Origin: a virus
IMG/VR virus record: IMGVR_UViG_3300008107_000220
Coordinates: 1 to 59,852 of that record
DNA length: 59,852 nucleotides
Reading direction: 5' to 3' (one strand)
Positions 5,549 through 45,160 of the stretch are shown one piece after another. Both the position numbers and the translations under genes were made by a program. Under the pieces are notes generated by a model. That model worked only from the letters and a program-made list of their open reading frames with translations, was not told the origin of the DNA and did no database searches. How positions within the stretch are numbered: position 1 is the stretch's first letter; the number at the start of each line of letters is the position of its first letter.

Positions 5549-5564
5549 TTTTTAGTTATTTATC
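5549..5564 (-). promoter_or_regulatory. late-type promoter element
   Basis: GATAAATAACTAAAAA on the minus strand, embedded in the stop codon of the upstream 1762-residue gene and about 10-20 bases before the start at 5542. The same ATAAATAACTAAAA arrangement recurs at 40387, 44678 and 47561. Confidence 0.6.
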
Positions 5565-8500
5565 GTTCAGTTTTTGCTGAAGGTCATCAACTTTATGTGA
5601 TAACTCTTTAATCGCTTCAATCAGAAGTGGAGTGATCTTTTCATACTGAACTGCCTTGAAACCATTCTCTCTAGTCGTCACAATCTCAGGAAGAACTTTT
5701 TCAATTTCTTGTGCGATGACACCAATGTCTTTACCAGTATGTGAGGACTGATCATTCCAATCAAAACTGTTTCCACTGAGGGAGAGAACCTTTGCCAGTG
5801 GATCTTCAATTGGAGTGATGTTGTCTTTCAGTCTTTCATCAGAACTGAAGAATGCGGTAATATCATCAGTGACGCTCAGAATGCCAGTGATAACCGTGTT
5901 GTCATTGATGTTCAGTTGTCCACCATTGCTATCCAGAGTCAGTTGTCCAGTTGAAGTGTCAATTGTATTGTCATTAGCAACACCAATTCTAATATTGTCA
6001 ATCGTGGCACCACCGTTAGCGTCAACGAGATTATTAAATGTGGTGACACCAGTGATCGTTATACCTTGAGAGACACCAAATGTTCCTGCTACAGAAACAT
6101 TTCCACCAACATTCAGATTCTTCTCAAGTCCAAGTCCACCATCAACAATCAGAGCACCACTATCTTTGCTGGTTGATTGTGTTGTATTGGTGATCTCAAC
6201 GGTGTTATTAACCTTCAGAGTTCCGTTAATGATGGTGTCATCGTTAATTTTAATTTCCTTATTGAATGTAACAGGACCATCAAACTGTGACAGAACTGTT
6301 CCAGAGTTTCCACCTTCAACAATCAGTCTTTCTTTAATGACAACTTCATCAAATACAACAGACAATCTTGAAGGATCTTGTCCTGTAATTGTTGGTGTTG
6401 GAATATCAAATGTTTTTTGAGTTCCTGAAGATGATGAATACTTAGTATTACCAATGAAGAAGTCACCATCGCTGTTCATACCAGTATAAACAACGGTTCC
6501 ACAAGATCTTTCTTGTGCCTGGACAAGAAAGTCCTCTCTTTCGGTCAGAGTCTTGACTTGAACTTGTGGTAAACCAGTTGAATAGTTACCAGGACCATAT
6601 CCAAGATATTCAAATGTATGTCCAGAAGCACGAATAATGGATGGTCTACGGAATTCAATTGCCAGTGGTTTGATCTTCTTAATCAATGATCCACCAGAAT
6701 GATTCTGTTTTCTTGTTCCCAGAACACCACGAATGACTGTAATTTCATTAAGACTTGATCCAGTCAATGTAGAACTGGTGATTCTCATAATCTCATTATC
6801 AATCTGAATATAAGATCCAAGTGGGAATCTTGTTACTGTTCCAATTCCAGAGTTAGTTGTCTGAACATGGAATGTAGTATCATTTGTAACATTTGAAAGC
6901 AGAGTCAGGGTCTCTCCAGCATAGAAAGAAATACCACGAGCACCTAGACTCTCTGTTGAAGAATCAGATGTTCCTTCATTTGCCGACAAACCGTGTCTTA
7001 GAATATAAAGTGGAGATAGGGAACGATTAGTCGTTGCCGAGAATGTATTAACACCGACTCTCTCTTTAACCAGGAAGTCTCCAATGTTATTATTAGAACT
7101 GTCTAGAACTCTAAAACGATTTCCAGATACAAGAGCGTGACCTGAAGAACAATTGAAGGTTGAGACTCCACTGACTGAATCGTAAGAACTTGTAGAGACA
7201 CGAATTGATGGTCCCAAATCAATCGCATATTGATTTGTGGCGATTCTTGGATCACCATTTGTAATCGCAATCGCAACTGTTGTGGTTGAAGGAACCGACG
7301 AGATTCTGTAGTATCCGTCTGAAGTGGTTCCAATACCAGTGATTTGGAGAACATCACCGATATTTGTAGAAATACCAGCAGTTGTGACTGTAAGACCAGC
7401 ACCAGCACCAGCCCCGATCAGTGATGTATCAAAGTCAAGTTGTTCGTTGTTTGTATATCCTGAACCACCATCAATGATCTCTGCAGATCTAATACTTCCA
7501 CCAGCGATAGTGACTTTTGCTGTGGCACCATCCCAATTGCTGGTTCCATCATTGAACAATTTAACATTATAGAAGGTTCCGTTTGTATATCCAGAACCAC
7601 CAGTTAGAGCATTGTATGTGATGATACCACTGAATCCATGCTCTCTTTCAAATGTAATTGTGGCAATACCAGCAGTAGTGCTTGTGAATGAAGTAGAAAC
7701 TCCAGAAATCTTAAGACCAACGCCAAAGTCCTTGACAAATTGGTCTGTTGCTTCTCTGGTAATACTCTTCTTTAGATCATTAGTTGAGACATCACCAAGA
7801 GGACTTCTCTTCGCAAATGTCTTTGCTGATCTTGGATTATCATCTATATTGTCCTTATCAAGTTGTGGATACAAATCTACAACATTCTGACTATACTTAA
7901 GGCCAGTAAATTCAGTTGAAATCGCATTGTCTGCCTTCAGAACATACAGATGGTAGATTCCATCTTGAGTGTTGAAGATATAAGGACTGACGACTTCACT
8001 TCTATAAACAAAGTAGTTAGACTTAAGATCATTTCTCTCAAATCTTGGCAGTGATGTATTTCTTGTGGATACATTGTTTGTAAATGTTCCGACGCTATGA
8101 GTGACTCCATTAACATCAGTAGTTGAATATTGAAATCTCTTGTCGTCAACAACTGCTGTGACTTCAAAGGTTCCGTTGTATCCAATGTCATTTGTTCCAG
8201 CAGTATTTGTTGTGCTGGTTACATTACGAACAATGATTTGCTCACCAACATTCAAGTTGTGTGGAAGTTCTGCGAGAACTGTTACTGTGTTGGTAGAAAC
8301 AGAACAAGTACCAATGAATCTTGGATTTCTATTATACGCATAATCCGTATCACTGATTGATGTGAGTGTAAAGTCAGTATTGGTTCTAGCACCAGTGCTG
8401 CTAGATTCTTGAATGATAAATCCATCGCTAGGATTTTTTCCGTTAATGGATTCTTTTGGAATAACGACACGAACCTTATAGAGTTTTTCGTCCAGAGATC

Positions 8501-10844
8501 TTGGATCGTCCTTTCTCTTGACAAAAGATACATTGGTTCTTGAAGTCAGATTTGCGACACCTTGAGAGGCAATCGCACTATAGATTTGATTGCTTGATTG
8601 TGTTTTTACGAACCAATTTGATCGTAAAGTATCCCATTGAACTGGAGATCCAATGTCTCCTGCTGCTTTGTCTGATACTCTACTGACGATTGTGAGTTTT
8701 GCTCCACCATAAACAGTAACTGCTGATCCATTTTCTGCGTTTGTTTGTGATGAAGCAAGTTTAATTTCAGTGGATGATTGGCGAATCGCATAGTAAAGAG
8801 TATTATCAAGAATGTTTTCTGGCAGATCGCCATCATCACTGAAGATTCTGACTGTTTCACCAGTTTGAATCTGATGAGTTCCAAGAGTAAAGATATTAGA
8901 TGAAGGTCCAGAAAGAACAGGATAGTTCTTTTCCGATACGCTTGTACCCTGAGCAATGGTTGTTCCTGATCCAAGAACATTGTCAAGCATACAGATTGAT
9001 GCTTCACTGGTTCCAGAACCGATGTTTACATACAGTTTATCGTTCTGTCTAGCACCAATACGATAACCTTGAATGATGATTGGTGGAGCATCGTCTTGGT
9101 CATTATAACCAAACAGATACAGGTGACTTGAAATGCCGACAGAGGTTGTTAGTCCAACATCAAGCGAGATCCAGTCAATGTTGACTTCTTCCTCTACATT
9201 TGCTCTTGGAGTAATAATAGAAGTCACATAGGCATTATTGTCTTTCGCAAATGCTTCTTTTTTGAATCCATCTGCTGATAGCGAGATCTGACCAAAGTTG
9301 GAGTTGGAGTTGGTAATAGATCCGTCACCACCAGATTCAGAATCAAAGTGCTTGTTAAATCCAATCGCAAATACAGAAACGATCTGAACGAACGAATCAT
9401 TTGTCATTTTGACGTGACTGGTTTCCCAACCGTGTCTGTAAATCGCATCGGCATCTAGGTGATAGACTGTTGCTGGATCAAGAGATGATGCTGCCGCAGA
9501 AAGAGCAGCACCTTTTGCCAGACTAACAGTTATACCTTCATAAAGTCTAGAGGTCTTGTTATATTTTACAAATGAACGGTCGTCTTTTTGTAGAGAAACG
9601 GCGGTGAACTGTGCCACGACCATTGAACGGAAACCAGATGCCTTGCTACCATCAGCAAGCATTCCATTCATACCCCATACGGATCTCAGAGATACGTTGA
9701 AAATGTATGGAGAAGCACCAGAAACCGTATCAGTTTCAATGGTTACGGTTCCAGAAGCAACACCAGGAGAAGCAGGGAGATTATCTCTTACAAAAGGAAG
9801 GAGATAAGTGAATTGTGTCGCACTGATAACATTCTGAACTTTTGTTGAGATGTTATAATCTAGTGTGCTGATTCCATTAATCTTAATTGGAGTTCCAGCA
9901 GTAAATCCGTGTGCCGATGTGGTTGTTACGGTGATAACGGTTCCTGGAGTTGATCCATCTCCAGAAATAATCGCAGAAATATTAACTGGATCGGGAGCAA
10001 AAGCACCAACGATTTCCCATTCTGGACGCTGCTTGGCAAATCCAAGAGTATCGGATGGGTACTTTTGATCAATATCTCTACCAGACGCACTATTAAATGC
10101 GTTTGATAGTTTGCTATAATACATATCAAGATCGGTGATCGCATATCCCTGTGGGATATTGACACCATCAGCATACTCAAAGCAAGTCAGTTTATGGTGA
10201 GAGAATGTTGGTTTTGACTGATTATTCGCAGAGAAATCAGCATCATCCGTATAAACTAGACCAGTTTCATCACCATCAAACAGAGAGAACTGCCAGAAGT
10301 AACAAGCACCAGTGATTCTAAAGATCGCTGACTTTTCTACGCTTGTATCAGTTGGGTTTGGAACATACTTTGGACGCAGTTTGGTCTTTCTTAAGTCAAG
10401 ACCAACGATAGATGTACCTCTTGGAACAACAACACCACCATTAATACTGTTAAACTTGTAGAGAATGTTGTCGTTTTGTGTGATATCAAAGTTAGAGGAT
10501 AATGTCAGAGTCAGAGTATCTTGTGCTGCCGTCTCTGCTCCTGATGGTGATACCGCAGTCGCAACACCACCTACATCTTTGATCGCAAAACCAGGTCTGT
10601 TATCAATGACGTGCTCGCCAGGAAACAGAAGAATGGTTGTTTTTTCTGTAATATCGTTATTGCTGCCTCTCAAGTATGAGAATCTTGCCGACTCAATAAG
10701 AGCTCTTTGAATTGTTTTGAAAGGTTGGGTTAGGGAGTTTCCCTGATTTGAAATACTATCAGTTGCGTCAATGTCATTTGGATTAACGTAGAGAATTCTT
10801 CCCTCTGTGTTTTTAACAAAATTCTCTAATTTATTAAGAGGCAT
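5556..10844 (-). CDS. giant fibre/virion protein with S74-type C-terminal chaperone (1762 aa)
   Basis: The largest gene of the window. The N-terminus (ILYVNPNDIDATDS..., then QPFKTIQRALIESARFS) looks like the start of a right-handed beta-helix/pectate-lyase fold. The middle is a long run of beta-rich sequence. The last 110 residues contain SSDERLKDNITPIEDPLAKV, then GVIAQEIEKVLPEIV and a terminal coiled coil. This is the peptidase S74/intramolecular chaperone domain, which trimerises fibres and then cleaves itself off; the SDERLK serine-aspartate pair is visible. The protein is probably a host-recognition or whisker-type fibre. The start at 10844 follows a GGATAAATAAAAG late-type element near 10870-10882. 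Confidence 0.85.
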   Translation of the reverse strand: MPLNKLENFVKNTEGRILYVNPNDIDATDSISNQGNSLTQPFKTIQRALIESARFSYLRGSNNDITEKTTILLFPGEHVIDNRPGFAIKDVGGVATAVSPSGAETAAQDTLTLTLSSNFDITQNDNILYKFNSINGGVVVPRGTSIVGLDLRKTKLRPKYVPNPTDTSVEKSAIFRITGACYFWQFSLFDGDETGLVYTDDADFSANNQSKPTFSHHKLTCFEYADGVNIPQGYAITDLDMYYSKLSNAFNSASGRDIDQKYPSDTLGFAKQRPEWEIVGAFAPDPVNISAIISGDGSTPGTVITVTTTSAHGFTAGTPIKINGISTLDYNISTKVQNVISATQFTYLLPFVRDNLPASPGVASGTVTIETDTVSGASPYIFNVSLRSVWGMNGMLADGSKASGFRSMVVAQFTAVSLQKDDRSFVKYNKTSRLYEGITVSLAKGAALSAAASSLDPATVYHLDADAIYRHGWETSHVKMTNDSFVQIVSVFAIGFNKHFDSESGGDGSITNSNSNFGQISLSADGFKKEAFAKDNNAYVTSIITPRANVEEEVNIDWISLDVGLTTSVGISSHLYLFGYNDQDDAPPIIIQGYRIGARQNDKLYVNIGSGTSEASICMLDNVLGSGTTIAQGTSVSEKNYPVLSGPSSNIFTLGTHQIQTGETVRIFSDDGDLPENILDNTLYYAIRQSSTEIKLASSQTNAENGSAVTVYGGAKLTIVSRVSDKAAGDIGSPVQWDTLRSNWFVKTQSSNQIYSAIASQGVANLTSRTNVSFVKRKDDPRSLDEKLYKVRVVIPKESINGKNPSDGFIIQESSSTGARTNTDFTLTSISDTDYAYNRNPRFIGTCSVSTNTVTVLAELPHNLNVGEQIIVRNVTSTTNTAGTNDIGYNGTFEVTAVVDDKRFQYSTTDVNGVTHSVGTFTNNVSTRNTSLPRFERNDLKSNYFVYRSEVVSPYIFNTQDGIYHLYVLKADNAISTEFTGLKYSQNVVDLYPQLDKDNIDDNPRSAKTFAKRSPLGDVSTNDLKKSITREATDQFVKDFGVGLKISGVSTSFTSTTAGIATITFEREHGFSGIITYNALTGGSGYTNGTFYNVKLFNDGTSNWDGATAKVTIAGGSIRSAEIIDGGSGYTNNEQLDFDTSLIGAGAGAGLTVTTAGISTNIGDVLQITGIGTTSDGYYRISSVPSTTTVAIAITNGDPRIATNQYAIDLGPSIRVSTSSYDSVSGVSTFNCSSGHALVSGNRFRVLDSSNNNIGDFLVKERVGVNTFSATTNRSLSPLYILRHGLSANEGTSDSSTESLGARGISFYAGETLTLLSNVTNDTTFHVQTTNSGIGTVTRFPLGSYIQIDNEIMRITSSTLTGSSLNEITVIRGVLGTRKQNHSGGSLIKKIKPLAIEFRRPSIIRASGHTFEYLGYGPGNYSTGLPQVQVKTLTEREDFLVQAQERSCGTVVYTGMNSDGDFFIGNTKYSSSSGTQKTFDIPTPTITGQDPSRLSVVFDEVVIKERLIVEGGNSGTVLSQFDGPVTFNKEIKINDDTIINGTLKVNNTVEITNTTQSTSKDSGALIVDGGLGLEKNLNVGGNVSVAGTFGVSQGITITGVTTFNNLVDANGGATIDNIRIGVANDNTIDTSTGQLTLDSNGGQLNINDNTVITGILSVTDDITAFFSSDERLKDNITPIEDPLAKVLSLSGNSFDWNDQSSHTGKDIGVIAQEIEKVLPEIVTTRENGFKAVQYEKITPLLIEAIKELSHKVDDLQQKLNDK

Positions 10845-14165: not shown

Positions 14166-14762
14166 TTACTTACAACTCTGTCCTACACCTTTGAGTAAAT
14201 CAGCAAACACTGAGGGAATAAAAGCACTGAGTAATTCAGAAAGTGGAGATCCTCCCTGCTGAATCTCACCAACAATATTAATGAAGTGATCCGTGACTAA
14301 ATTAATCTCTGCCTGCCCTCTGACACAGACTTTTGTACCTGATAGTGTCAGTTGCTCACCACTATCTATGGTGATTCCACCGTTTGCCTTAAGTAAAAAA
14401 GAACCATCATCAGTATCAAAACCACGAGATTCAATATAGATGTTTCTGGCAAGAATCTTTAAATTACCTGATGGGGCACATAGAACTAGATCTCCGTTTT
14501 CACAGTAGACACCGTATCCTACTGCCTCATCTTCTGCCTTGTCTCTTCCCTTTAGAGCATTATGTCCACAAGTAACGATGTTACTACCTTGAATATGTTC
14601 AGTCTTACCCCCATCACTTGTGTATTTGCAGGTTGAATTAGAAGGAACAGCAAGTCTAAACTCTGTTCCATCATCAACTTCTTTTGGACCACCTGGACCA
14701 AAGAAAGCTGAACCATGTGCTCCATCATAAAGTATATACTCTGGTGGTCTTTTCTTTGTCAT
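14166..14762 (-). CDS. beta-helix-like spike protein (gp5 C-terminal analogue?)
   Basis: A 198-residue protein whose centre is a ladder of short strands with alternating polar residues (GNLKILARNIYIESRGFD, then LLKANGGITIDSGEQLTLSG), the pattern of the triangular beta-helix that forms the C-terminus of T4 gp5. It follows the RlpA-domain protein and the gp5 OB-fold protein in one operon. I infer that the functions of T4 gp5 (OB fold, lytic domain, beta-helix spike) are split over three genes here. Alternatively it is an unrelated baseplate needle protein. Confidence 0.6.
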   Translation of the reverse strand: MTKKRPPEYILYDGAHGSAFFGPGGPKEVDDGTEFRLAVPSNSTCKYTSDGGKTEHIQGSNIVTCGHNALKGRDKAEDEAVGYGVYCENGDLVLCAPSGNLKILARNIYIESRGFDTDDGSFLLKANGGITIDSGEQLTLSGTKVCVRGQAEINLVTDHFINIVGEIQQGGSPLSELLSAFIPSVFADLLKGVGQSCK

Positions 14763-17203
14763 TATTTTAATACACAGTCAATAACTTTAATGAGTCTTGT
14801 GGGATTAAAGTCAGGTTGTTCTTGGAGATATTGATCTCTATTCACAAATCTCATTACAGGACGAACCTTTAATCCTGCTCCAGTATCACTATTTATTGTG
14901 ATCTCTGGAACTTCACCAAATCCGCATCCAGAAGAAAGAACTTCCATCGCAACAATCTGTCCAATTTCTGTAATCTGCACTTTGACTTGTAATCCAGCAA
15001 CATCAGGAGTAATGGAAACACTATCAGTCAGAGAGTATCCAATACCTGTATCAAGAATCTGAATTTCATCCAGACAAGTCACATATTCTCTTGTGACAAC
15101 TTCTTCATTTGGTAGAAGTTGCTCTGTTGGTTGCCCAAATTCTGTGAAACCAGAAGGTGTATTTAAATATCTTGTCCCACCGTTGACCATTATGACTTGA
15201 ACAACTTCACCATCATTATTAATAACTGTATATCCTGATGCTCCATACCCACCACTTCCAGATGGACTGTTATCAGAACAAGTATCTTTAAAGGTCACAA
15301 ATGGTGGAGCAGTGTATCCTCTACCACCATAAGATAAATCTACGCCAACGACTTCACCAACAGAGTTAATAACAGCATTTCCAACTGCTCCTACCCCATT
15401 ACCACCAAAGAATTCAACTTTTGGTGGACCACAACGGAAAGCACCTGGAAAACACTGAACTCCTGGCGGAACATTACCGCTGACAAGATCGCTTCCTTCA
15501 ATTCTTTCATCTCCAAAAATTGAAACTCCTGGCAGAAGTCCACCAATGGCAGAATCAACACCACCTAATATAGTCTCTTCAATTTGACCAGCATCTGGAA
15601 TTGGTAAGAAGTTATTACTAAAATCTTCTATTGCTGATGGTGTGACTCCAGTGCCAGGAATCCAAGACTTAATTTGTGGGCACTTTGGTTTGGCACAAAG
15701 GAATGCTTCAAATCCAAGAATAAAGTCAATTGCTTCAAATACTTTTCCAGCAATTTTAGCAACACCACCGAGCACATCATTAATCGCAGAAACGATTGGT
15801 TGAATTGCCTCATCAATTTTAGCAGATAGATTATTGATCAGAGCATTTGTGAATTGCTCAACAGCACATATAGGAGCATTGATCACATTACCGATCATCG
15901 CATACAAGAAATCAACAACGAGATTTGATAATCCCTTGATAATCTCATTGAACTTACAAATAATAGCGTCAATGATTGCTTTGATAAATGTGTTCTTCAG
16001 TGCCTTTGATAGTTTGTTAAGGATTCTATCAATTGTTTTTTCAATCAATTTACGAAGAAGATTCATAATATAATTACGCATTCTTTGAACAAGTAGTTTC
16101 AAGATTGATGCGATAATCTGACTTGTCCTGGCAACAAGATTGGTGATGTTCTGTATTCTATTTACTGCTCCCTTCACATAAACATTATAATACTTCTTGA
16201 TTGTCTTTAATGTTTCAAAGAAATTCAATAAAGCATTATTGATTCCAGATAGAGTGCTTTTTCCACAAGGATCTGGTAATTCTTGTATTTGCTTTTCAAG
16301 TTCCGCTTCTAATGCTCTCAGTGCTGTATAGTTATATCCATCTCTACACTTCTTTTCTTCGGGAGACCAAGATGTAGTTGTCTCAGATGCTACAGGACAA
16401 TCTTCTCTTGCCCAGTCTTGTCTTTTTCTTATTTCTGCTAATAGTTCTGCCTGATAAGTCTTTATCTTTTTTAGTTTTTCAAGTTCTTCGGGTGTTAGAT
16501 CAAGATTTTCTGCCTCTCTTTGCTGATATTGGTTTTCTAATTGAGTGTATTGATCTTCTAGGAATTTAAATTGATCTTGAAGTTCATTGAACGTAAACTC
16601 TGAGTAATCAACATTATAAGTTATTGTTGGTTCCGTGCTTCCTGGTGAAGTTGATGTACTATCTTCTAAACGTACAGCATTTGGTGGTAAGTTGTTGGTT
16701 GAATATGGAGTTCCATCTGGTGGTGTGACAATATATAAAGGTTGCCCGTTAGGACTTGTACCACTCTCCACATAAGTTGGGTTTTGAGTGTCTGTTGTTT
16801 CTGGTGGATTTGCTACTTCTTCTGCGTTTGCCCTTTCTTGTAAAGCAGTCAAATTTGGTCTATCAAGTTGCCTCACTGTGCCAGTTCTTGTATTTTTAGC
16901 AACTTCTGTAGTTAAAAGAGATCCTGTTCCTGATCTTGGTCCTGTTTTAAGACCAATCAGTTCTGCTGCTTTTTCAGTTAAATCATAATCTCTACCAGAG
17001 ATAAAAGGACCCCTATCTTTTACAGTAAGAACAATTGATTTTCCGTTTTGGGGATTAGTAAATCTTATTTTTGTTCCAAATGGTAGAGTTTTATGTGCTA
17101 CCCATAGACTGTCTTTTGTTAAGACAGTGCCATCCGCTGTTCTATTACCATAAAATCCAGGACCATACCAACTGGCAACACCTCTTGGTCTTACATCTGC
17201 CAT
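14762..17203 (-). CDS. baseplate protein with N-terminal RlpA-type lytic domain (813 aa)
   Basis: Residues 8-90 match the double-psi beta-barrel of RlpA lytic transglycosylases: GVASWYGPGFYGNRTADG, AHKTLPFGTKIRFTN with H37, and VKDRGPF with the catalytic-type D63, then YDLTEKAAELIG. RlpA cleaves peptidoglycan glycan strands, so this domain can replace the gp5 lysozyme that opens the cell wall during injection. After a Pro/Thr linker and coiled coil (about 205-260) come amphipathic helices (LLNFFETLKTIKKYYNVYVK...) and a glycine-rich beta C-terminus with repeated GGRGYTAPP-like turns. AAGGAGG precedes the ATG and a late-type AATAAATAT lies just upstream. It lies next to gp5-like and gp27-like genes. 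Confidence 0.82.
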   Translation of the reverse strand: MADVRPRGVASWYGPGFYGNRTADGTVLTKDSLWVAHKTLPFGTKIRFTNPQNGKSIVLTVKDRGPFISGRDYDLTEKAAELIGLKTGPRSGTGSLLTTEVAKNTRTGTVRQLDRPNLTALQERANAEEVANPPETTDTQNPTYVESGTSPNGQPLYIVTPPDGTPYSTNNLPPNAVRLEDSTSTSPGSTEPTITYNVDYSEFTFNELQDQFKFLEDQYTQLENQYQQREAENLDLTPEELEKLKKIKTYQAELLAEIRKRQDWAREDCPVASETTTSWSPEEKKCRDGYNYTALRALEAELEKQIQELPDPCGKSTLSGINNALLNFFETLKTIKKYYNVYVKGAVNRIQNITNLVARTSQIIASILKLLVQRMRNYIMNLLRKLIEKTIDRILNKLSKALKNTFIKAIIDAIICKFNEIIKGLSNLVVDFLYAMIGNVINAPICAVEQFTNALINNLSAKIDEAIQPIVSAINDVLGGVAKIAGKVFEAIDFILGFEAFLCAKPKCPQIKSWIPGTGVTPSAIEDFSNNFLPIPDAGQIEETILGGVDSAIGGLLPGVSIFGDERIEGSDLVSGNVPPGVQCFPGAFRCGPPKVEFFGGNGVGAVGNAVINSVGEVVGVDLSYGGRGYTAPPFVTFKDTCSDNSPSGSGGYGASGYTVINNDGEVVQVIMVNGGTRYLNTPSGFTEFGQPTEQLLPNEEVVTREYVTCLDEIQILDTGIGYSLTDSVSITPDVAGLQVKVQITEIGQIVAMEVLSSGCGFGEVPEITINSDTGAGLKVRPVMRFVNRDQYLQEQPDFNPTRLIKVIDCVLK

Positions 17204-17234: not shown

Positions 17235-17912
17235 TTAGACACCACGAACTTGCCCACCAACACCATTGATACGATTAATAATGGCATCAATCTGTTCTCT
17301 TGGAACTGGTCCAAGTTCTCCCCTCTGAATAGATCTGAGAAGTAATTGGTCTTCTGCTTTATCTTTTGCTGTATAATCTCTTGCTATCTCTGTTGATGTG
17401 GACAACTTACTAGCATCAAATGTCATAGAGTCTTTTGCTTGTTCAAACTCCTGCTTTGTTGGTTGTGCTGGTGTTACTGGTTTATTTCCACCTCTCATTT
17501 GACCACTATAAGGAGCAAAAGAATTGAATCTTGTGATGTTCTCAAATTCAGTTGACTTTCTTTCTTTGACTATTTGTAATGATACATTGTTTTCGTAGGT
17601 TCCTCTACCTAATACCGAAGTAATTACAGGTACTTGGTTAAATGGATCTAAGAAATATCCACGCACCCATTCACCACCCGTAAGTCCAGTTGATCCTCTA
17701 CTAGCATTTCCTTGAGATGTTGGTCTCTCTACAATCGCCCAAGGTAGTTGTTCATCTGGTGTGATTGCTCCTGCTTTATTATGCATTCCAACAATTCTGA
17801 CTTTAACTCTATCACCCCAACCATCAGGATCAGTCTTATCTAGAGTTTGGTTTGGAGGAACTTGTCCAATAAACCACTGATAGTTAATTCCAGCAAATCC
17901 TATATTTTCCAT
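17235..17912 (-). CDS. 5: gp5-like baseplate hub OB-fold protein (225 aa)
   Basis: The first 105 residues match the N-terminal OB fold of T4 gp5: INYQWFIGQVPPN, then GDRVKVRIVGMHN, LPWAIVERPTSQGN, VRGYFLDPFNQVPVITSVLG. T4 gp5 has the same order (WFVGVV, RVRVRVVGLH, LPWMSV, VYGHFLD). The lysozyme domain is missing; instead there is a helical, charged C-terminal tail. The protein should sit on the gp27-like ring at the tail tip. The gene abuts the gp27-like gene upstream and the RlpA-type gene downstream, consistent with a split gp5. Confidence 0.8.
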   Translation of the reverse strand: MENIGFAGINYQWFIGQVPPNQTLDKTDPDGWGDRVKVRIVGMHNKAGAITPDEQLPWAIVERPTSQGNASRGSTGLTGGEWVRGYFLDPFNQVPVITSVLGRGTYENNVSLQIVKERKSTEFENITRFNSFAPYSGQMRGGNKPVTPAQPTKQEFEQAKDSMTFDASKLSTSTEIARDYTAKDKAEDQLLLRSIQRGELGPVPREQIDAIINRINGVGGQVRGV

Positions 17913-19192
17913 TACTTTGTATACTTCCCGTAAGTGTCTCTCACTAAAGTTAACGATGTAATTGATTTACCACCGGCACTTAAATCAAAACTATGACACA
18001 AATGTAATATTAAGTATTTACCACTTAGATGTTCGTCAAAAGGAGAAATATTTTTATCTCCAAGAGTGACATATTGAAAATCACAATTAATAACATCTCC
18101 TGCTACAAGATTTGGATTACAAGGAACATTGATTTGAACAACTTGATTGAATAGTAAATTATATCTCGTTGTTGCCTCTGCTTGCCATCTTTTTGGATCA
18201 TTATTTGTTCGGATAGAAATACCATCATCCAAAGATCCAATGTCTAAGATATGATAATGAGTTCTTGTAAAATCATCAAAGTCTTCAGCAATTTCTGCTT
18301 GTTTTCCAAGATACTTATTTAATTTTTTTTCTCTCAATCTAATAATTACTTCGTCATACTTAAAAGTTCTTGGATCAAAAAAGATATTTCTAGAAGAATA
18401 AACACCTGACTTTAAGGCACTCAAAATACTTTGGTTTTTTGTCTGAGTCATTGATAAAATTTTAAAGTCAGATTGTGGATCATCATCTCTTAAAACCGAA
18501 GTTTGTCTATAAGTATATTGAGGAGTTTTGGATATCAAGCTAGAAATTGATCTAAAGTTAAATCCATTCTGAGTTTCATAAAAAAAGTATCCAGGATCCT
18601 TTTCATTTAATGAAACTGATTTTGCTGCTAAGTTAAATAAAATAAAAAATGGATTTTTACTATTTCCATTGAAGTTATAAGTATTTTCTGTTGGATCTAT
18701 ATTGATTCTACTTTGAGGAACTTTAAGTTGTTCTCTTAAGATTTTAAGCACAGATTCAGAAATAAGATGTGTATACTTTTTGTATACCGCTGTTTTTTCA
18801 TTCACAAATGAATATGGTGATATTAATGATATTGCATAGGATTCTCTATTAGATTCTTTGGCAAATCCTGGTGCACCATCAACACGTAGAGGAAATTTTT
18901 GGAAGTCTAATTTTCCAAGTTTAGTGGTAAATTTAAACTCCATAATTTCATTACCAGTTATAGGTAAAGAACTCAATAAAGTTCCGGAAATTTGTTGTTT
19001 ATTCTGACTGGATGATACTGAATTTCCAGCAGGAATACCAGTATCAACAACAAGTAAGTTTGCGGTAACGACTGGAGAAAATAAACTCTCATAATATTGA
19101 AAAGCAATCGTTCTAGGTGGAGAAATATCTACACTATTTCCATTTTTTACGATTGTTAATGCGTCTACCTGAGATCTTTTTAATGCTGACAT
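17912..19192 (-). CDS. 27: baseplate hub protein, gp27-like (426 aa)
   Basis: A 426-residue protein close in size to T4 gp27 (391) and immediately upstream of the gp5-like gene, with which it overlaps by one base. It carries beta-rich N-terminal sequence (RTIAFQYYESLFSPVVTANL), a middle domain and a C-terminal barrel-like part (GDVINCDFQYVTLG, GKYLILHLCHSFDL) typical of gp27/gpD-type hub rings. The assignment rests on gene order plus general pattern more than residue identity. It would form the trimeric ring joining the tail tube to the spike. Confidence 0.7.
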   Translation of the reverse strand: MSALKRSQVDALTIVKNGNSVDISPPRTIAFQYYESLFSPVVTANLLVVDTGIPAGNSVSSSQNKQQISGTLLSSLPITGNEIMEFKFTTKLGKLDFQKFPLRVDGAPGFAKESNRESYAISLISPYSFVNEKTAVYKKYTHLISESVLKILREQLKVPQSRINIDPTENTYNFNGNSKNPFFILFNLAAKSVSLNEKDPGYFFYETQNGFNFRSISSLISKTPQYTYRQTSVLRDDDPQSDFKILSMTQTKNQSILSALKSGVYSSRNIFFDPRTFKYDEVIIRLREKKLNKYLGKQAEIAEDFDDFTRTHYHILDIGSLDDGISIRTNNDPKRWQAEATTRYNLLFNQVVQINVPCNPNLVAGDVINCDFQYVTLGDKNISPFDEHLSGKYLILHLCHSFDLSAGGKSITSLTLVRDTYGKYTK

Positions 19193-19195: not shown

Positions 19196-20866
19196 TTACA
19201 CGTTCCAAATATCTGGGAGAGGAGCAAGATTAGGAGATGATGATGGAAATGGATCTTTTCTACTACTATTTACCACAACAGTTCTTGTTTTACCTTGTTG
19301 AATAATTTGTTGGGTTGTATTGACCATCACAATCTGAATATCCTCTTCTTCTTCCAAAAGGAAGGATGTCTCTGGTGAAATTGTTGGGCCCTGTTGTCCA
19401 GGTTGAACTTGATAAGGTGATACTGGTGCTTGTTGAATTTGCTGTTGTTTTTTCTGTTGTTGTAAAAGTTGTTGTAGATTAGCAGGACCAGAATTTAAAT
19501 GGTTTAAAGTATATTGTGATCCATCTGGTGCTTGGATATAAACTTGATTACCATAACCACTACCAGAATCTGGCATAAATTTCAAGAATTTTAATCCACC
19601 TGTTAGAGTAATTCTCTGATCGGGATTTCCAGCATAATCTTCACCCTTATGAATTCTACCCCATCTAGGACCAATTCCAGAAGTAAATCTCAATCTACTT
19701 GTCATTGGAATACCTTCTACTAATATATTCTTTTTTACATTACCAGGTATGCCAAGATTATAATCACCAACTCTTTCAATATGAAGGTGTGATCCATCTG
19801 GTCCTATAGGATCAGTGTAACCAGTATACCCAACTGTGCCAATCACTTCACTTGTATCAATAGAAACTGTTCCTGTCTGACCTGTTGTTGGAATTGGTTG
19901 TTGTGATTGTGGGGAGGTCATCGGAGTTGTTTTAAATGGTTTAGTCAGTTGTAAATCTCTTAATTGTGTTAAGAAAGTTTCAAAAGATTTATTCACCCCA
20001 TTAAAAGTATCACTAGATGACTCAAGTAGTAGGTAATTTTCTTTATTTTCTTTTGATAGATTAAAGAATTCTCCAAAAGCATTATATGATTGTCTTGCTT
20101 GTCTAAGTTTTGGAGATCCACCAGGTCTTGCGTATGGTGAAGAAGTAACTTTTGTATCAGTAGTTCCTCTTGAAACATTCACTCTGTCTGTCGGACTACC
20201 TCTACCAGTTCCTTTTTGTGATGGAATATTTGAAATCGTTCCACCTTTTGCCTTTCCTTGTGGGTTTTCCTGTGATTGGGGATTGGATTGACCTGGCTGA
20301 TTTGAACTGGGTGTACTACTAGATTTGGAATTTAAGTCTTTATTAAACTTTGTATATTGTTCATTCAGTGGATCAATAATTTTATTCATATCTAAAATCA
20401 ATTGTTCTAATTGATTTTTTCCTTCAATTAATTTGTTTTTTGTTGCTTCTGGTAAACTTTGAATAATACTAATAAATCCGTTGACACCATTTACTGTCGC
20501 AGTAATAACACCAACAATTGAATTAGCAACATCAATTAATGTTTTTCCAACTTCGGTAACTTTGTTAACAATCGCAGGTAGATTGTTAATTGCTATACCA
20601 ATTAAAATAATTCCAAAAAATTCTTTGACTTTATCAAAGAAACTCATTGGACCGGCAACAATTCTAGATTTTATATTTTCAATCAGTCCTTTTCCAGGTG
20701 CTTCTAATTTTTTTTCTTTGTCTGATAATTGTGACTTTTTCTCTCTATCAACCAATAACTTATTTTCATCAAGTCTTAGTTTTCTTAACTGCTTATTGTA
20801 ACCAATTAAAGAACTTTTGATATTGGTAGAATTTAATTTTAGTTGATATAACTGTTGTGTTTCCAT
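19196..20866 (-). CDS. hub/tape-measure-like protein with permuted M23 peptidase domain (556 aa)
   Basis: The N-terminus is a coiled coil (about 10-55), then a hydrophobic segment (FFGIILIGIAINNLPAIV, about 83-100) shared with the adjacent 531-residue protein. A low-complexity Ser/Gln/Gly linker follows. Residues 338-460 contain all the M23/LytM zinc-peptidase motifs in swapped order: VIGTVGYTGYTDP and SHLHIE (HxH, H360/H362) come first, then GIGPRWGRIHKGEDYAG (H406, D410), GYGNQVYI and TLNHLNS (H456). In normal M23 enzymes the HxxxD half precedes the HxH half. The tail is Gln-rich. Likely an endopeptidase acting on peptidoglycan cross-links during tail penetration. Confidence 0.75.
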   Translation of the reverse strand: METQQLYQLKLNSTNIKSSLIGYNKQLRKLRLDENKLLVDREKKSQLSDKEKKLEAPGKGLIENIKSRIVAGPMSFFDKVKEFFGIILIGIAINNLPAIVNKVTEVGKTLIDVANSIVGVITATVNGVNGFISIIQSLPEATKNKLIEGKNQLEQLILDMNKIIDPLNEQYTKFNKDLNSKSSSTPSSNQPGQSNPQSQENPQGKAKGGTISNIPSQKGTGRGSPTDRVNVSRGTTDTKVTSSPYARPGGSPKLRQARQSYNAFGEFFNLSKENKENYLLLESSSDTFNGVNKSFETFLTQLRDLQLTKPFKTTPMTSPQSQQPIPTTGQTGTVSIDTSEVIGTVGYTGYTDPIGPDGSHLHIERVGDYNLGIPGNVKKNILVEGIPMTSRLRFTSGIGPRWGRIHKGEDYAGNPDQRITLTGGLKFLKFMPDSGSGYGNQVYIQAPDGSQYTLNHLNSGPANLQQLLQQQKKQQQIQQAPVSPYQVQPGQQGPTISPETSFLLEEEEDIQIVMVNTTQQIIQQGKTRTVVVNSSRKDPFPSSSPNLAPLPDIWNV

Positions 20867-20869: not shown

Positions 20870-22465
20870 TTATACAAAAATCCCATATATTTTTGAAGTT
20901 ATTCTCATATAAGGATTCATCGTATTAACAGATCCAATCGTTGGTTCTTCTGTTGCCGTTCCACCAGAAGGTTGAACTAACTCATCTCCACCACCTTGAA
21001 CTATTGGTGGAGCGGTCATAGGAATTATAATTGGTGCCTTTGGAGTTCTCTTTGGTTTTCTAATACTCTGTGCTTTAATTTCTTTTACTACAGGACGCAG
21101 TATGTCAGTTGGTTTTTTTGGACTACCTTGATCAAGCGAAGATACTTGTATTTGTTTTGTTCTATTTGTTGTAGAAAAACCTCCACCAGTAGCATCATCA
21201 ACTTTTTTAAACTTAACATCATTGATAAATTGATCTAGTTGATCTTTAAATTTGGTCAATTGTTGTTGAAGGTCAATAATAACAATCTTTAAAGTCTTAT
21301 TACCATCAAGCATCTCACGGACACCTTGACTAAAAGATGCCCAAAGTCTTCCAGAGTTATCATTAATATCTTTCAATAGTGGTCTGAATAAGTTTGCTGC
21401 TGACGAACGAATAACTTCTTCACCAGGAGCCAACATTGCTCTCACACTATCAACCAATCCAGAACCTTTACCACCAACGGATCCACCACTAGAAAATCTT
21501 TGAATGATATTTGGATACTGTTTAATTACACTCGCTCTAAAGTTATATGAAGGTAAATTAGGTATTGTACCACCAGAAGAATACATTGCACCTGGAATTG
21601 GCAATGTCAATGGATCTTGTGGTCCTCCAGGTTTAGTTAATTGTTCTTTGGCAAAATATGCTCCAAGTTTTTCATAAAAGGGAGAATCTTTTTTATTTAA
21701 AGTTTCCTCAGCCGATTTTAAATCTTTTCTTACATAAGGTTTGATTCTTTCTATTTCTCTATTTCTTGCTGCAAAACCAATAATAGTTGTTAATGCTCCT
21801 AACAGAACAGGATTTAATAAAACTGCTGAAACTACTTGTATAGCTGCTATTAATTTGGCAACCACAGAAATCAGTTGAAGTCCAACCAAGACCCCAACTA
21901 TTTCTTTCCAATATTTTCCTACAAAACTAAGAGTTTCTGACAATTTCTTTTGATTATTCTTATCAGATAACCAAGTAAATGCCGTGTTAATGGCAATACC
22001 AGATACAATAATTCCAAAGAAGTCAATTAACTTTTGGAATATATTTTTGGCAGGAGCAGTGACCTTATCAAAGAAATTACCAACTCCTTGATTAAATTTG
22101 TTTATTGATTCAATTGATGCTTCTTTTTTACTTACTCTTTCTTTCTCAGTTTGTTTTTTGATACCACGAATTGCTTGCTTTCTTTCTGCAATTCTTGTAG
22201 CAAAATCTATTGCTAGTTGATTCTGAATTTCTACAAGAATTCTATTCGTCTCTTGTAATGCGTCTAGTTGATTTGTCTCAAGTTTAAGTGAACCTTGAGT
22301 TCCTTGTAGTTTTGGTCTTTGTAAAAATCTAAAACTTGATCTTCTAAGTCTTGGAGTAGCAGCACTTGAAACAGCTTCAGCACCACGAATTACCGAAGAT
22401 GAAATGTTCCTACTACTAATCTTCGGTATTGATGGTGCCTTATAGATGGGACTTTCAAATGCCAC
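20870..22465 (-). CDS. tail tape-measure / gp29-like hub protein (531 aa)
   Basis: N-terminal coiled coil (about 60-125), then a hydrophobic FFGIIVSGIAINTAF segment (149-163) and a second membrane-like run (VLVGLQLISVVAKLIAAIQV). From about residue 325 it reads FSSGGSVGGKGSGLVDSVRA, followed by MLAPGEEVIRSS, the GG...GKGSG...LAPGEEVI motif common in phage tape-measure proteins. The gene follows a gp26-like chaperone and a 61-residue helical protein, the arrangement seen before tape measures. It therefore probably sets tail length or occupies the tube lumen, but a gp29-type hub role is also possible. Overlaps its upstream neighbour by 11 bases. Confidence 0.68.
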   Translation of the reverse strand: MAFESPIYKAPSIPKISSRNISSSVIRGAEAVSSAATPRLRRSSFRFLQRPKLQGTQGSLKLETNQLDALQETNRILVEIQNQLAIDFATRIAERKQAIRGIKKQTEKERVSKKEASIESINKFNQGVGNFFDKVTAPAKNIFQKLIDFFGIIVSGIAINTAFTWLSDKNNQKKLSETLSFVGKYWKEIVGVLVGLQLISVVAKLIAAIQVVSAVLLNPVLLGALTTIIGFAARNREIERIKPYVRKDLKSAEETLNKKDSPFYEKLGAYFAKEQLTKPGGPQDPLTLPIPGAMYSSGGTIPNLPSYNFRASVIKQYPNIIQRFSSGGSVGGKGSGLVDSVRAMLAPGEEVIRSSAANLFRPLLKDINDNSGRLWASFSQGVREMLDGNKTLKIVIIDLQQQLTKFKDQLDQFINDVKFKKVDDATGGGFSTTNRTKQIQVSSLDQGSPKKPTDILRPVVKEIKAQSIRKPKRTPKAPIIIPMTAPPIVQGGGDELVQPSGGTATEEPTIGSVNTMNPYMRITSKIYGIFV

Positions 22466-22640
22466 TAGATTGCTTTGCCTTTAGGTTTTCTTCTTCAATA
22501 TAAGTTTGAAGTAATGAGACATAAACTTCACGCTCCCAAGGCATCATATTTTCAAGCTCAGTTAATGAATATTTATGGTGTTGCATCAACTGAAAATTGA
22601 CATTATAGTATGACTCAAGACTAGTATGAGCCATACTCAA
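22455..22640 (-). CDS. small tail-assembly protein (61 aa)
   Basis: A helical protein with the motif LTELENMMPWEREVYVSLLQ. The PWER-x-x-Y pattern occurs in small tail-assembly proteins encoded just before tape-measure genes. The start overlaps the stop of the gp26-like gene as ATGA and its end overlaps the tape-measure-like gene. A chaperone function with the gp26-like protein is likely by position. It corresponds in place to T4 gp28/gp51-type hub-assembly factors, but I cannot match it to either. Confidence 0.65.
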   Translation of the reverse strand: MSMAHTSLESYYNVNFQLMQHHKYSLTELENMMPWEREVYVSLLQTYIEEENLKAKQSSGI

Positions 22641-23359
22641 GTGAAAAAACTCGCCAGACCCTCCAGGACTACATCACTTTCAACCTTAGTCTTTGGATTC
22701 TTAACTTTGATTGTGTGAGAAAGTTTAGGCATCGTCGTAAAGAAAGTCTCAATTTCTTTGAACTGTTTAGTATTCATCTGTTCAATAAATTCTTGAAGTT
22801 CTTTCTTTGTACAGTCAGAGGCACTCCACGACTCTTCTTGATCATAAACCGCATCAATACAAGACGTAATCATTGCTAACGACTTATCAACATCACCACC
22901 TACTTCATTGATTTCAAAGTTATTCTCAACAAATTGTTCCAATGATGGATACTTAAGTTTCATTGAGAGAGAATCATCCAATTTAATAATGTTGCTGTGA
23001 TTTGAATCCTTTTGAACCTTAATATCATCAATATTGATTTCCATCTGAACTTGAGTCTCACCATCATCAGGACAAGTTACATTGACTTCAACAGTTTCAC
23101 CAACCGATTTGGCACGAACGTTAAGGAACAAATACTCAATATCAAACGTAGATAGTTCAGAAATTTTTACATTTTTGGTCAGAAGACAATCTGACAAAAT
23201 CTGAACAATAGCACCTGAAATTTGCTTCATATCTTCTGATTCTAGTGCCATAATCAGAATTTTTTCTTCTCTAACTAGAAATGGTCTGTATCTAACTTTT
23301 TTTCCAGTAGAGGGCAAGTCCAACTCATATGTTGGTGTAGAGATCTTTGGTAAAGGCAT
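22637..23359 (-). CDS. 26: baseplate hub assembly protein gp26-like (240 aa)
   Basis: Matches the T4 gp26/T4-type baseplate family by pattern: PTYELDLPSTGKKVRYRPFL, LVREEKILIMALES, LTKNVKISELSTFDIEYLFL and the CPDDGETQ turn. T4 gp26 has 208 residues and helps assemble the hub; relatives act as tape-measure chaperones. A GATAAATAATC late-type element about 25-35 bases upstream marks the start of this late transcription unit, which runs on through the tape-measure and hub genes. Confidence 0.85.
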   Translation of the reverse strand: MPLPKISTPTYELDLPSTGKKVRYRPFLVREEKILIMALESEDMKQISGAIVQILSDCLLTKNVKISELSTFDIEYLFLNVRAKSVGETVEVNVTCPDDGETQVQMEINIDDIKVQKDSNHSNIIKLDDSLSMKLKYPSLEQFVENNFEINEVGGDVDKSLAMITSCIDAVYDQEESWSASDCTKKELQEFIEQMNTKQFKEIETFFTTMPKLSHTIKVKNPKTKVESDVVLEGLASFFT

Positions 23360-37428: not shown

Positions 37429-39351
37429 TTATGATGGGTAAGCAATGATGACGATACCGGAACCACCGTTGCCACCATTTCTCCAAATGGGATATCCACC
37501 AGCACCACCACCACTGCCAGTATTTTGAGTTCCTGCTCCAGCAACAGGTCCATTGCCTGCACTTCCTACTCCACCACCGCCAGGACCACCAGAACCAGCA
37601 GTTCCATTATAAGTGCCTCCACCACCACCACCAGCATATGTTGTTGCTGTTCCAGAAATAGTATATTGAACTCCATTACCACCCGGTCCGCCAGTTGATC
37701 CAGAAGCGTTACTACCTGCACCACCAGCACCGCCGCCTCCGCCACCTGACCCATAATTATCTCCACCACCAGTATTACTTCCAGTGCCGCCAGGATATCC
37801 CCATCCTGATGCTGGTGATACGGTGTCTGGAGAAGCACCAGTAGCACCTGATCCAGTTCCTCCTGGTTGAATTGTTCCACCAGGTCCAGGAGCTCTACCA
37901 CCTCCACCACCAGAACCACCAGGAAGACCAGTGCTTCCATAGTTTGGAGAACCTGCTCCACCACCAGTAGCAGTTATGGATCCAAATGAAGTGTCACTAC
38001 CATTTGTAGCCTGAACTCCTAAATCACCATTTCCCGTATTTCCACCAGAACCAATAGTAACAGTGTAAATTCCTGGAGATAATGATACTGGTGATGAAGT
38101 AGCATAACGAATTGCGCCAGCACCGCCGCCGCCAGAAATAGTACCTCCACCTCCTCCACCACCAGCAACTGCAAGGTAATCAACAGAAGTTAATGATGGA
38201 CTTGTGATTGTAAAAGTTCCTGATGATGTAAATGTATGAATAGTTTTTCCACTGGCATAAGAAATTGTTCCCCCAGATGCTTTAACCGCTTGTTGTCCTA
38301 TTTGATATCGGAGAATAACAATTCCAGATCCTCCTGAACCACCAACTGAAGCGCCTGCAGTGCCACCACCACCGCCAGTATTAGTAGTTCCATTACCTCC
38401 AGGTCCGCTTCCACCACCTCCTGCTCCACCAGATCCTTGACTTCCACCGTTTGATCCGCCGGCACCACCACCAGCATAAGTTACTGATGCACCAGAAATA
38501 GATGAAGATTGACCAGCACCACCAGGTCCACCAGAAGCTGGTCCACCGTTTGAACCAGCAGTACCAGCACCACCACCACCACCGCCGCCGTTTGTTGTAT
38601 TTTGAGAAGCACCAGTACCACCTGGATTTCCTTGTGGTGGTGATGCTGGTGGAGTGTTTCCTGTGCCAGCAGGTGCTAGAGGTCTTCCAGAATCTGAACC
38701 GCCGTCGCCGCCGCCAGATCCACCAGGTTGTCCAGCATTTGCATTACTATTTGAGAAGCTTCCTCCGCCGCCGCCACCAGTAGAAGTTATTGTTGAAAAC
38801 ACTGATGGATTTCCATTAGTGCCCGGAACACCTACCGGTCCAGTATATCCACCACCACCAGCACCTACAGTAACCGTATAAGAACCAGGAGAAGTACTTA
38901 CTTGTAATCCGATACCAGTTCTAAATCCACCAGCACCACCACCACCATTATTACTACCAGCTCCGCCACCGCCAGCAACTACAAGATATTCAATAGTATT
39001 ATTGAGTGGTGTGGTGTTTAATACTGTAAAAGTTCCTGATGAGGTAAAAGTGTGTGCCTGATATAATACTCCATTACTAACATAATTAGTAATTGTTCCA
39101 CCAGATGCTTGTATAAATGAAGGACTACTAGAAGCATTCCAAGCAGTTCCATTGTAAACTTCTATTTGTCCAGTAGAACTATTGTAAATGATAGTTCCAG
39201 TTGCAGTTCCTACACCAGCATTGCGTCCAGTGGTTGTTGTAGCACCTAACCCAACACCAGCATTACTAATAAACTTATCACCAACAGTAATTGACGTACT
39301 TGCCGTAATCGTACTAACACCAGAAATACTGTTGAAATTAATGATTGCCAT
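37429..39351 (-). CDS. tail-fibre adhesin with duplicated glycine-rich domain (640 aa)
   Basis: N-terminal attachment module as in 35455-36567 (RNAGVGTATGTIIYNSSTGQ), then two full glycine-rich adhesin domains in tandem. The first runs from FTVLNTTPLNNTIEYLVVAG to GGSGIVILRYQ (about residues 110-352); the second from GTFTITSPSLTSVDYLAVAG to GGSGIVIIAYPS (about 378-640). Each has its own poly-Gly loops, so the tip may present two different receptor-binding surfaces. The loops differ greatly while the frame strands are conserved, the sign of a diversifying adhesin. Late box TATAAATA is at 39382-39389. Confidence 0.82.
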   Translation of the reverse strand: MAIINFNSISGVSTITASTSITVGDKFISNAGVGLGATTTTGRNAGVGTATGTIIYNSSTGQIEVYNGTAWNASSSPSFIQASGGTITNYVSNGVLYQAHTFTSSGTFTVLNTTPLNNTIEYLVVAGGGGAGSNNGGGGAGGFRTGIGLQVSTSPGSYTVTVGAGGGGYTGPVGVPGTNGNPSVFSTITSTGGGGGGSFSNSNANAGQPGGSGGGDGGSDSGRPLAPAGTGNTPPASPPQGNPGGTGASQNTTNGGGGGGGAGTAGSNGGPASGGPGGAGQSSSISGASVTYAGGGAGGSNGGSQGSGGAGGGGSGPGGNGTTNTGGGGGTAGASVGGSGGSGIVILRYQIGQQAVKASGGTISYASGKTIHTFTSSGTFTITSPSLTSVDYLAVAGGGGGGGTISGGGGAGAIRYATSSPVSLSPGIYTVTIGSGGNTGNGDLGVQATNGSDTSFGSITATGGGAGSPNYGSTGLPGGSGGGGGRAPGPGGTIQPGGTGSGATGASPDTVSPASGWGYPGGTGSNTGGGDNYGSGGGGGGAGGAGSNASGSTGGPGGNGVQYTISGTATTYAGGGGGGTYNGTAGSGGPGGGGVGSAGNGPVAGAGTQNTGSGGGAGGYPIWRNGGNGGSGIVIIAYPS

Positions 39352-39381
39352 CTATCTTATAATAAGACTTCCAGTTTTGAA

Positions 39382-39389
39382 TATTTATA
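39382..39389 (-). promoter_or_regulatory. late promoter box TATAAATA
   Basis: Exact TATAAATA on the minus strand about 31 bases before the duplicated adhesin gene, overlapping the stop region of the collagen-like fibre gene. Confidence 0.65.
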
Positions 39390-40380
39390 CGACGACCCAA
39401 ACGCCATCAATTCCCAAAGATCCATTTACAGTCACTGGACCTGCCATCAGACCATTAAAAGCAGTGCCAATATAATGATTGCCGTTCAGAGTATTATCCA
39501 TCACCACCATTCCGTTTGAAATGTAAAGTCCCTGGAATGAGTTACCGACACCAGTGAGTGCTGTTCTATTTAATGTTGTCGTATTAATTCCAACTTCACT
39601 CGTCGTTGAAATACCAGCAGCAGAAGTTTCCCAGAAGATATTACCAATGGTTCCCTGTACACCCTGTCGTCCCTGAATACCTTGAATACCTTGTGTTCCA
39701 GTTGCTCCTTGAGTACCCGTTGCTCCTTGTGTTCCAGTAGCACCTTGAGTGCCTGTTGCTCCTTGTGCTCCGGTAATTCCTTGAATACCTTGTGCTCCAG
39801 TAGTACCCTGAGTACCTTGTGAACCTAAAGTACCATTAAATCCTTGAGCACCTTGTACACCTTGAATACCTTGAGTACCTTGTGAACCTAAAGTTCCATT
39901 GAAACCTTGAGCACCTTGAACACCTTGGATGCCTTGTGTTCCATTCGTACCTTGAGTACCTGTTGTTCCTTGAGTACCCTGTGTTCCTTGTGTACCTTGC
40001 GTTCCAGTAGTACCTTGTGTTCCAGTAGTTCCTTGTATACCTTGAACTCCTTGGATACCCTGAGTTCCTTGGATACCCTGAGTACCCTGGACTCCTTGAA
40101 TACCCTGAGTACCTTGGATTCCTTGAGTTCCTGTAATGCCTTGAATACCCTGGACTCCTTGAGTGCCTTGAGTTCCTTGAGTACCTAGTATTCCTTGAGT
40201 TCCTTGAACACCTTGCCTTCCCTGAACTCCTTGAGTACCTTGAGTTCCTTGAACACCAGTGACACCTTGTACGCCCGTGTTAATTCTTACCCAAGAGTTG
40301 CCATTAAACTGCCAAGTCGTATCGTTGGCGACGTATGTATCGTTTACAGCAGGATTATTGGGAAAATTAAGGGCTGCCAT
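39385..40380 (-). CDS. collagen-like tail-fibre protein (331 aa)
   Basis: N-terminus ALNFPNNPAVNDTYVANDTT with WQFNGNSWVRI is a fibre-attachment module common to the collagen-like fibres here. Residues about 38-240 are G-x-Q triplets ([10 protein letters not shown] style) with Gln at the third position and Thr, Ile, Val or Ala in the second; proline is almost absent. The C-terminal 85 residues form a beta tip (EVGINTTTLNRTALTGVGNS..., NGSLGIDGVWVVV). A trimeric collagen-like rod with a short knob is expected. Late-type element at 40387-40402. Confidence 0.82.
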   Translation of the reverse strand: MAALNFPNNPAVNDTYVANDTTWQFNGNSWVRINTGVQGVTGVQGTQGTQGVQGRQGVQGTQGILGTQGTQGTQGVQGIQGITGTQGIQGTQGIQGVQGTQGIQGTQGIQGVQGIQGTTGTQGTTGTQGTQGTQGTQGTTGTQGTNGTQGIQGVQGAQGFNGTLGSQGTQGIQGVQGAQGFNGTLGSQGTQGTTGAQGIQGITGAQGATGTQGATGTQGATGTQGATGTQGIQGIQGRQGVQGTIGNIFWETSAAGISTTSEVGINTTTLNRTALTGVGNSFQGLYISNGMVVMDNTLNGNHYIGTAFNGLMAGPVTVNGSLGIDGVWVVV

Positions 40381-40386
40381 TATGTG

Positions 40387-40402
40387 TTTTTAGTTATTTA
40401 TT
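40387..40402 (-). promoter_or_regulatory. late-type promoter element
   Basis: AATAAATAACTAAAAA on the minus strand, overlapping the stop codon of the family B gene at 40398 and about 10 bases before the collagen-like gene start. Confidence 0.6.
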
Positions 40403-40709
40403 CTGTCTTTGGATACTTATCTTTGATTGCCTGAATTTGTGCTGCCATTTCTGGAGGGAAAACTCCAGCGTGAAACAGAGCATCAAGTTGATCTGTGATT
40501 GCTGGGTATTCTGGTGCTCTTTGGCGTTGGTATTCTGTATTTTGATAATATTGCTTTACTCTCTCAAACTCTACTATAACATCATCTTCAGATGGCAATG
40601 GAGTTCCATCCAGAGTATGAATATTATCATATCCAGTTCCATCAATATGTATTGGAACATTGGGGAGAAGATTTTGTACTGCTTCTGTAAGAATTCTAAT
40701 AGTTTTCAT
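40398..40709 (-). CDS. small fibre-locus protein, family B (103 aa)
   Basis: LTEAVQNLLPNVPIHIDGTG opens differently from its sisters, but YYQNTEYQRQRAPEYPAITD with QLDALFHAG and AIKDKYPKTE keeps the family B core. It follows a family C gene (40709) with a one-base overlap and precedes the collagen-like fibre. The divergence at the N-terminus may reflect pairing with a different fibre. Confidence 0.68.
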   Translation of the reverse strand: MKTIRILTEAVQNLLPNVPIHIDGTGYDNIHTLDGTPLPSEDDVIVEFERVKQYYQNTEYQRQRAPEYPAITDQLDALFHAGVFPPEMAAQIQAIKDKYPKTE

Positions 40710-42921: not shown

Positions 42922-42945
42922 ATCACTTCACATTTCCTCTATTTA

Positions 42946-44670: not shown

Positions 44671-44677
44671 TATCTAC

Positions 44678-45152: not shown

Positions 45153-45160
45153 CTTTATAA

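Follow-up and report, generated by a model that had tools for sequence, protein, structure and literature searches.

Evidence for a circularly permuted M23 (LytM-like) peptidase domain in a tail gene of a T4-like virus

Known M23 domains and the tail gene of the window

Peptidases of the M23 family (Pfam accession number PF01551), which include LytM, lysostaphin, MepM, and ShyA and are represented by the PDB entries 3slu, 6muk, and 9gy1, consist of a compact beta-rich domain with the zinc motifs H(x)nD and HxH, which follow each other along the canonical chain in the order HxxxD - H - HxH. The extra catalytic histidine is located ~30 residues before the HxH motif. The virus record IMGVR_UViG_3300008107_000220 from IMG/VR, analyzed here over its full length of 59,852 nucleotides (the window), encodes a 556-aa tail protein that has both segments of the M23 domain and all five active-site residues in common with these enzymes, and a compact beta-rich domain is likewise predicted for it. 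However, the order of its segments is permuted: new termini have arisen behind the HL motif, and the old ones are linked to each other. Its phage-tail setting resembles that of phi29 gp13 and Tal2009 (PMC9662197).

Two groups of described proteins are also close to it. The cyanophage proteins ACG-2014f gp011 and Sf-FP1 gp14 occupy the same gene position and also carry an M23 domain near the C terminus, but that domain has the canonical order and a single stretch of PF01551 similarity (profile positions 2-92 or 2-88). Conversely, the S-TIM5 virion protein (F417_gp111) and the “peptidase M23 family protein” of S-EIVl have the permuted order and a homologous junction but different carrier proteins, and the S-EIVl domain has HxD instead of HxH. 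A precedent from another wall-hydrolase superfamily is provided by the circularly permuted NlpC/P60 proteins (YaeF-like and LRAT-like), in which the catalytic residues are swapped; these, however, have an unrelated papain-like fold and a cysteine mechanism and have moved to lipids. A 2022 review of the M23 family does not mention permutation (PMC9662197), and none of the scanned Pfam, NCBIfam, and PHROG models describes the permuted domain as such. A literature search that left most subscription journals outside its reach found no report of a permuted M23 or LytM domain, so the permuted domain is only provisionally new to the literature.

The open reading frame spans exactly positions 19196 to 20866 on the minus strand, a strand that an earlier sequence-only reading had not given. 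The window, from a cyanophage-like virus, is T4-like, as seen from its gp26-like baseplate hub protein (22637 to 23359, minus strand; PF12322, E = 1.9e-75; 64% identity to S-SM2 gp26). Next to it is a T4-GC13-like protein with weak tape-measure similarity in PHROG matches (20870 to 22465, minus strand), which has a helical stretch in common with the 556-aa protein (hhalign E = 1e-5). On the other side of the gene lie, all on the minus strand, a gp27-like tail hub protein (17912 to 19192; phrog_350, E = 1.8e-81; gene order identical to that of P-SSM2), a gp5-like OB-fold hub protein (17235 to 17912; phrog_1922, E = 3e-28, with a weak PF06714 match below the cut-off), and, three genes downstream of the 556-aa gene, an 813-aa gp5-like hub protein (14762 to 17203; phrog_1922, E = 2.4e-58) with an N-terminal RlpA-type DPBB domain at residues 7-90 (PF03330, E = 1e-12). 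Within its hub cluster, the phage thus appears to encode wall enzymes of two kinds, an RlpA-type DPBB domain (lytic transglycosylase) and a permuted M23 domain.

The gene order gp26 - GC13 - GC14 - gp27-like - gp5-like, along with N-terminal homology, assigns the 556-aa protein to the T4-GC14 slot of T4-like cyanophages. Its N-terminal region (residues 2-181; 20324 to 20863, minus strand), which is helical in the DSSP assignment of a model with low confidence, shows homology to the proteins that fill this slot in P-SSM2 (hhalign E = 7e-7) and S-SM2 (6e-7). This gene neighborhood points to a location at the tail tip. The S-SM2 slot protein itself (S-SM2_013, L022:8982-11516) contains HRGRGHYEGRALDV...HMHIE and resembles another zinc peptidase; its assignment as an M15-like enzyme was dropped, as it had no Pfam match at E = 0.001. 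Elsewhere on the minus strand, the window encodes a 1,762-aa probable tail fibre with a C-terminal Peptidase_S74 intramolecular chaperone (5556 to 10844; PF13884, E = 4e-16), a 717-aa protein with TPR, FkbM methyltransferase, and radical SAM domains (48161 to 50314), and a cluster of collagen-repeat and Gly_rich_2 proteins (37429 to 47546 and 54657 to 56396) that are probably tail or head fibres.

Order of the M23 segments and predicted structure

Near the C terminus of the 556-aa protein, the sequence runs VIGTVGYTGYTDPIGPDGSHLHIE - RVGDYNLGIPGNVKKNILVEGIPMTSR - LRFTSGIGPRWGRIHKGEDYAGN...GYGNQVYIQAPDGSQYTLNHLNSGP, which gives the motif order IGTVGYTG...HLHIE, HKGED, and NHL. The predicted domain (residues ~337-463; 19478 to 19858, minus strand) was delimited from the AlphaFold2 (AF2) domain model, the full-length model, and alignment A3. 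Its first segment (residues 341-364, VIGTVGYTG...SHLHIE; 19775 to 19846, minus strand) corresponds to the C-terminal part of a canonical domain. The junction of the old C terminus with the old N terminus follows (residues 365-391; 19694 to 19774, minus strand) and is common to groups A, B, and C defined below. The second segment (residues 392-461; 19484 to 19693, minus strand) corresponds to the N-terminal part of a canonical domain. The five active-site residues are found in swapped order exactly where the sequence-only reading had placed them, and the set is complete, as it had claimed: H360 (19787 to 19789), the first histidine of HxH, catalytic in LytM-type enzymes and invariant in alignments A1, A3, and A7; H362 (19781 to 19783), the second histidine of HxH, and H406 (19649 to 19651) and D410 (19637 to 19639) of HxGxD, all three predicted zinc ligands by homology; and H456 of NHL (19499 to 19501), catalytic by homology, all on the minus strand. 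H406-x3-D410 and H360-x-H362 are invariant in the group, as is H456, which is located after HxH owing to the permutation. The order HxH - HxxxD - H thus marks the protein as a permuted relative of the M23 family and not as a canonical member. The four histidines are the only ones in the protein, which has no cysteines. Shuffling the sequence of the protein 200,000 times produced the pattern HxH..HxxxD..H with loose spacing twice and the fuller motif never.

Profile comparisons recover the same swapped arrangement. In an hmmscan of unaltered fragments of the 556-aa protein, the first piece matched PF01551 positions 63-86 (E = 0.06) and the second matched positions 2-59 (E = 0.05); the corresponding pieces of the homologue L015 matched far better, at positions 62-87 (E = 7.5e-7) and 2-64 (E = 1.1e-5). 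When the window group was compared by hhalign with a canonical M23 profile built from E. coli MepM and 11 canonical phage domains, two swapped, non-overlapping alignments were obtained, of the first segment to canonical columns 102-126 (E = 1e-10) and of the second to columns 38-94 (E = 8e-8). The S-TIM5-type group gave E values of 1e-15 and 1e-11 against the same profile. The window-group HMM also finds M23 chains of known structure, namely 3slu and 6muk (E = 2-3e-12); in 3slu, its positions 71-128 fall on residues 242-297 and its positions 9-35 on residues 304-330. The two pieces are only six residues apart, which puts the new termini within this six-residue gap of the canonical chain. The whole 556-aa protein scores 19.5 bits against PF01551, for which the curated cut-off is 28.7, and a search of the window with this model at threshold returned no match; its relatives L072 (46.6), L088 (42.4), and L037 (35.7) score above the cut-off.

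The AF2 model of the domain (149 residues, 16 sequences; pLDDT 88.6, pTM 0.84) consists of one compact domain and not two truncated ones, in agreement with the earlier proposal. By homology, H406, D410, and H362 would share one zinc site. The full-length model is poor (pLDDT 49.6), with a helical N-terminal region, low-confidence linkers, and a single ordered domain at ~337-463. The suggested benefit of the permutation for inserting the domain into a long tail protein finds no support, as the domain is flanked by low-confidence segments, probably disordered according to the model, with no enclosing fold. A Foldseek search of the PDB, which keeps the chain order, found no match below E = 0.2, an outcome that is expected of a permutant but is not positive proof of one. 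Against BFVD, Foldseek retrieved the models of S-TIM5 (TM 0.63) and Synechococcus phage P60 (TM 0.66) proteins, both with probability 1.00, and the sequences of both proteins are likewise permuted.

Spread and origin of the permuted domain

Homologues with the same swapped order, which the sequence-only reading had proposed to look for, do exist, also in tail and virion proteins of several unrelated phages: ~40 distinct permuted domains were collected (42 strings were listed, 2 of which are chance matches). Since they occur in independent contigs and named isolates, the order is not an assembly artefact. Group A is the window family as it occurs in T4-like relatives, and its members retain all five active-site residues down to ~30% identity. 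Group B is represented by a ~1,000-aa virion protein of S-TIM5, S-TIM54, S-TIM66, and environmental contigs, and group C by the 566- to 600-aa proteins of L083, L088, and L092; the HxH, HxGxD, and HL motifs are kept in both groups. Group D, with HxD for HxH, includes the tape measure protein of Acinetobacter Vieuvirus and proteins of Moraxella Mcat phages, S-EIVl, and the T7-like cyanophages P60, S-CBP1, and DSL-LC07. The domain is under purifying selection, with dN/dS values of 0.10-0.21, dS being saturated in the two more distant pairs. The presence of a circularly permuted M23 domain with a complete set of active-site residues in this tail gene is supported by profile matches, residue conservation, and synteny, along with a single-domain model of high confidence.

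The HxD variant is found in tail proteins of Acinetobacter and Moraxella phages as well as in S-EIVl (L120:3001-3345, L121:3001-3378, and L128:3941-4484) and would have Asp in place of the third zinc ligand. In the permuted HxD versions of DSL-LC07 (L122:2760-3179), S-CBP1 (L124:2902-3342), and P60 (L110:5349-5777), Ser replaces the histidine of HxGxD, and all three retain a histidine nine residues ahead of the Asp. Three relatives of the 556-aa protein (L037:2981-5155, L038:2603-5380, and L039:2597-5386) have a Phage_lysozyme2 domain after the permuted M23 domain, a pair of enzymes that is also found in S-TIM5.

No matches to the 556-aa protein or to L015 were found by tblastn with strict limits in 50,697 phage records, and the named phages were reached only by looser queries or by domain queries from other groups. 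Two pattern scans covering 84,980 genomes of bacteria and archaea, a shallow search, revealed no permuted domain; the first scan yielded no confirmed relative, and all eight loci from the second were canonical. The internal protein of Anabaena phage A-4L (PDB 9k2v chain E), considered as a candidate for a solved permuted M23 domain, proved to be canonical. The tape measure protein of Thermus phage P23-45 is canonical too.

In hhalign comparisons, the groups align collinearly over their full length, junction included (A with B, E = 5e-26; C with A, 9e-44; D with A, 8e-13; D with B, 7e-15). This collinearity through a common junction argues for a single permutation event, and the sequences thus suggest one ancestral permutation behind all groups. 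The domain tree places group C within group A and unites group B with group D, although this second grouping is weakly supported (65). The broader proposal that one ancient permutation founded a virion-borne M23 lineage, so far seen only in phages, which then spread as a cassette across contractile, long non-contractile, and short-tailed phages and which includes HxD as a second active-site variant, we consider evenly poised between right and wrong.

The permutation probably originated in a tandem duplication whose outer halves were lost, since at the junction there seems to be hardly any gap between the old C-terminal strand and the old N-terminal strand that follows it; the hhalign hint of this strand-to-strand continuity is weak (E = 0.3). 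The S-TIM5 virion protein (L111:2444-5434) contains a degenerate M23-like stretch at residues ~400-500, just upstream of its permuted domain, in which residues 430-464 match PF01551 positions 45-79. This stretch is a possible trace of an ancestral duplication.

Proposed function and its alternatives

The likely reading, in our judgment, is that residues ~337-463 form one circularly permuted M23 (LytM-like) fold and act as a virion-borne peptidoglycan endopeptidase that opens the wall at entry. The old termini would be joined via a junction of ~27 residues, and the new ones would fall in the loop that connects the HL motif to the IGxxGxTG segment. By analogy with the M23 zinc mechanism of LytM (PMC9662197), H406, D410, and H362 would hold the zinc ion, and H360 and H456 would activate water. 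Since all five M23 active-site residues are kept, the enzyme should cleave the peptide cross-links of host peptidoglycan. The domain can be envisaged as packaged in the tail near the hub, where flexible linkers would hold it to a helical anchor that comes from the hub/tape-measure gene cluster. At injection, it would reach the periplasm and cut peptide cross-links with the zinc mechanism typical of M23 enzymes, and the RlpA-like DPBB domain may act as a partner enzyme on the glycan strands, so that the wall would be opened jointly. Zinc binding, peptidoglycan cleavage, location in the virion, and timing are thus all predicted properties of the protein.

The same fold might serve without catalysis, binding peptidoglycan or having a purely structural role, comparable to EnvC and NlpD with their degenerate LytM domains; degenerate LytM factors are known (PMC9662197), and group D, with its HxD and with the loss of the usual HxGxD histidine in the P60-like members, would be in line with this idea. 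It nevertheless appears improbable for the window protein, given that the active-site histidines are its only histidines, that the five residues are invariant in group A, and that groups B and C keep all three motifs. Somewhat less probable still is an active permutant that acts on another substrate, in the maturation of a virion protein or on a non-peptidoglycan component of the envelope. The permutation of NlpC/P60 accompanied a change of substrate (PMC12994826), and new termini close to the groove could alter its shape, but the domains fused to the permuted domain or encoded next to it, Phage_lysozyme2 and DPBB, are wall enzymes, and relatives carry a canonical M23 domain in the T4-GC14 slot.

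Two explanations that deny a single domain within one chain appear very improbable. Separate truncated M23 remnants of a tandem duplication would display the observed order after loss of the outer halves of the pair, and the 556-aa protein has no intact copy; against this stand the compact model with its pTM of 0.84, the two matches that complement each other on the canonical domain and leave only six residues between them, the conservation of both segments and the junction across four groups, and the low dN/dS. In a domain-swapped assembly, neighboring subunits of an oligomeric tail part would exchange segments, the first segment of one completing the second of the other. Tail hubs are indeed oligomeric, the junction is long enough to permit the exchange, and the model is that of a monomer alone; yet this monomer is already compact and confidently predicted, and the domain is present in proteins of very different architecture.

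With a single permuted, catalytically competent M23 domain as the favored reading, the finding bears on one of the best-studied wall-hydrolase folds, for which a natural permutant means that new termini near the active-site loops are tolerated. It explains how phage tail enzymes of this kind come to be missed or underscored by the standard M23 models, and it offers a test case for whether permutation alters the choice of substrate, as in NlpC/P60. It also suggests a probable function for many proteins that are currently labelled “virion structural” or “tape measure.”
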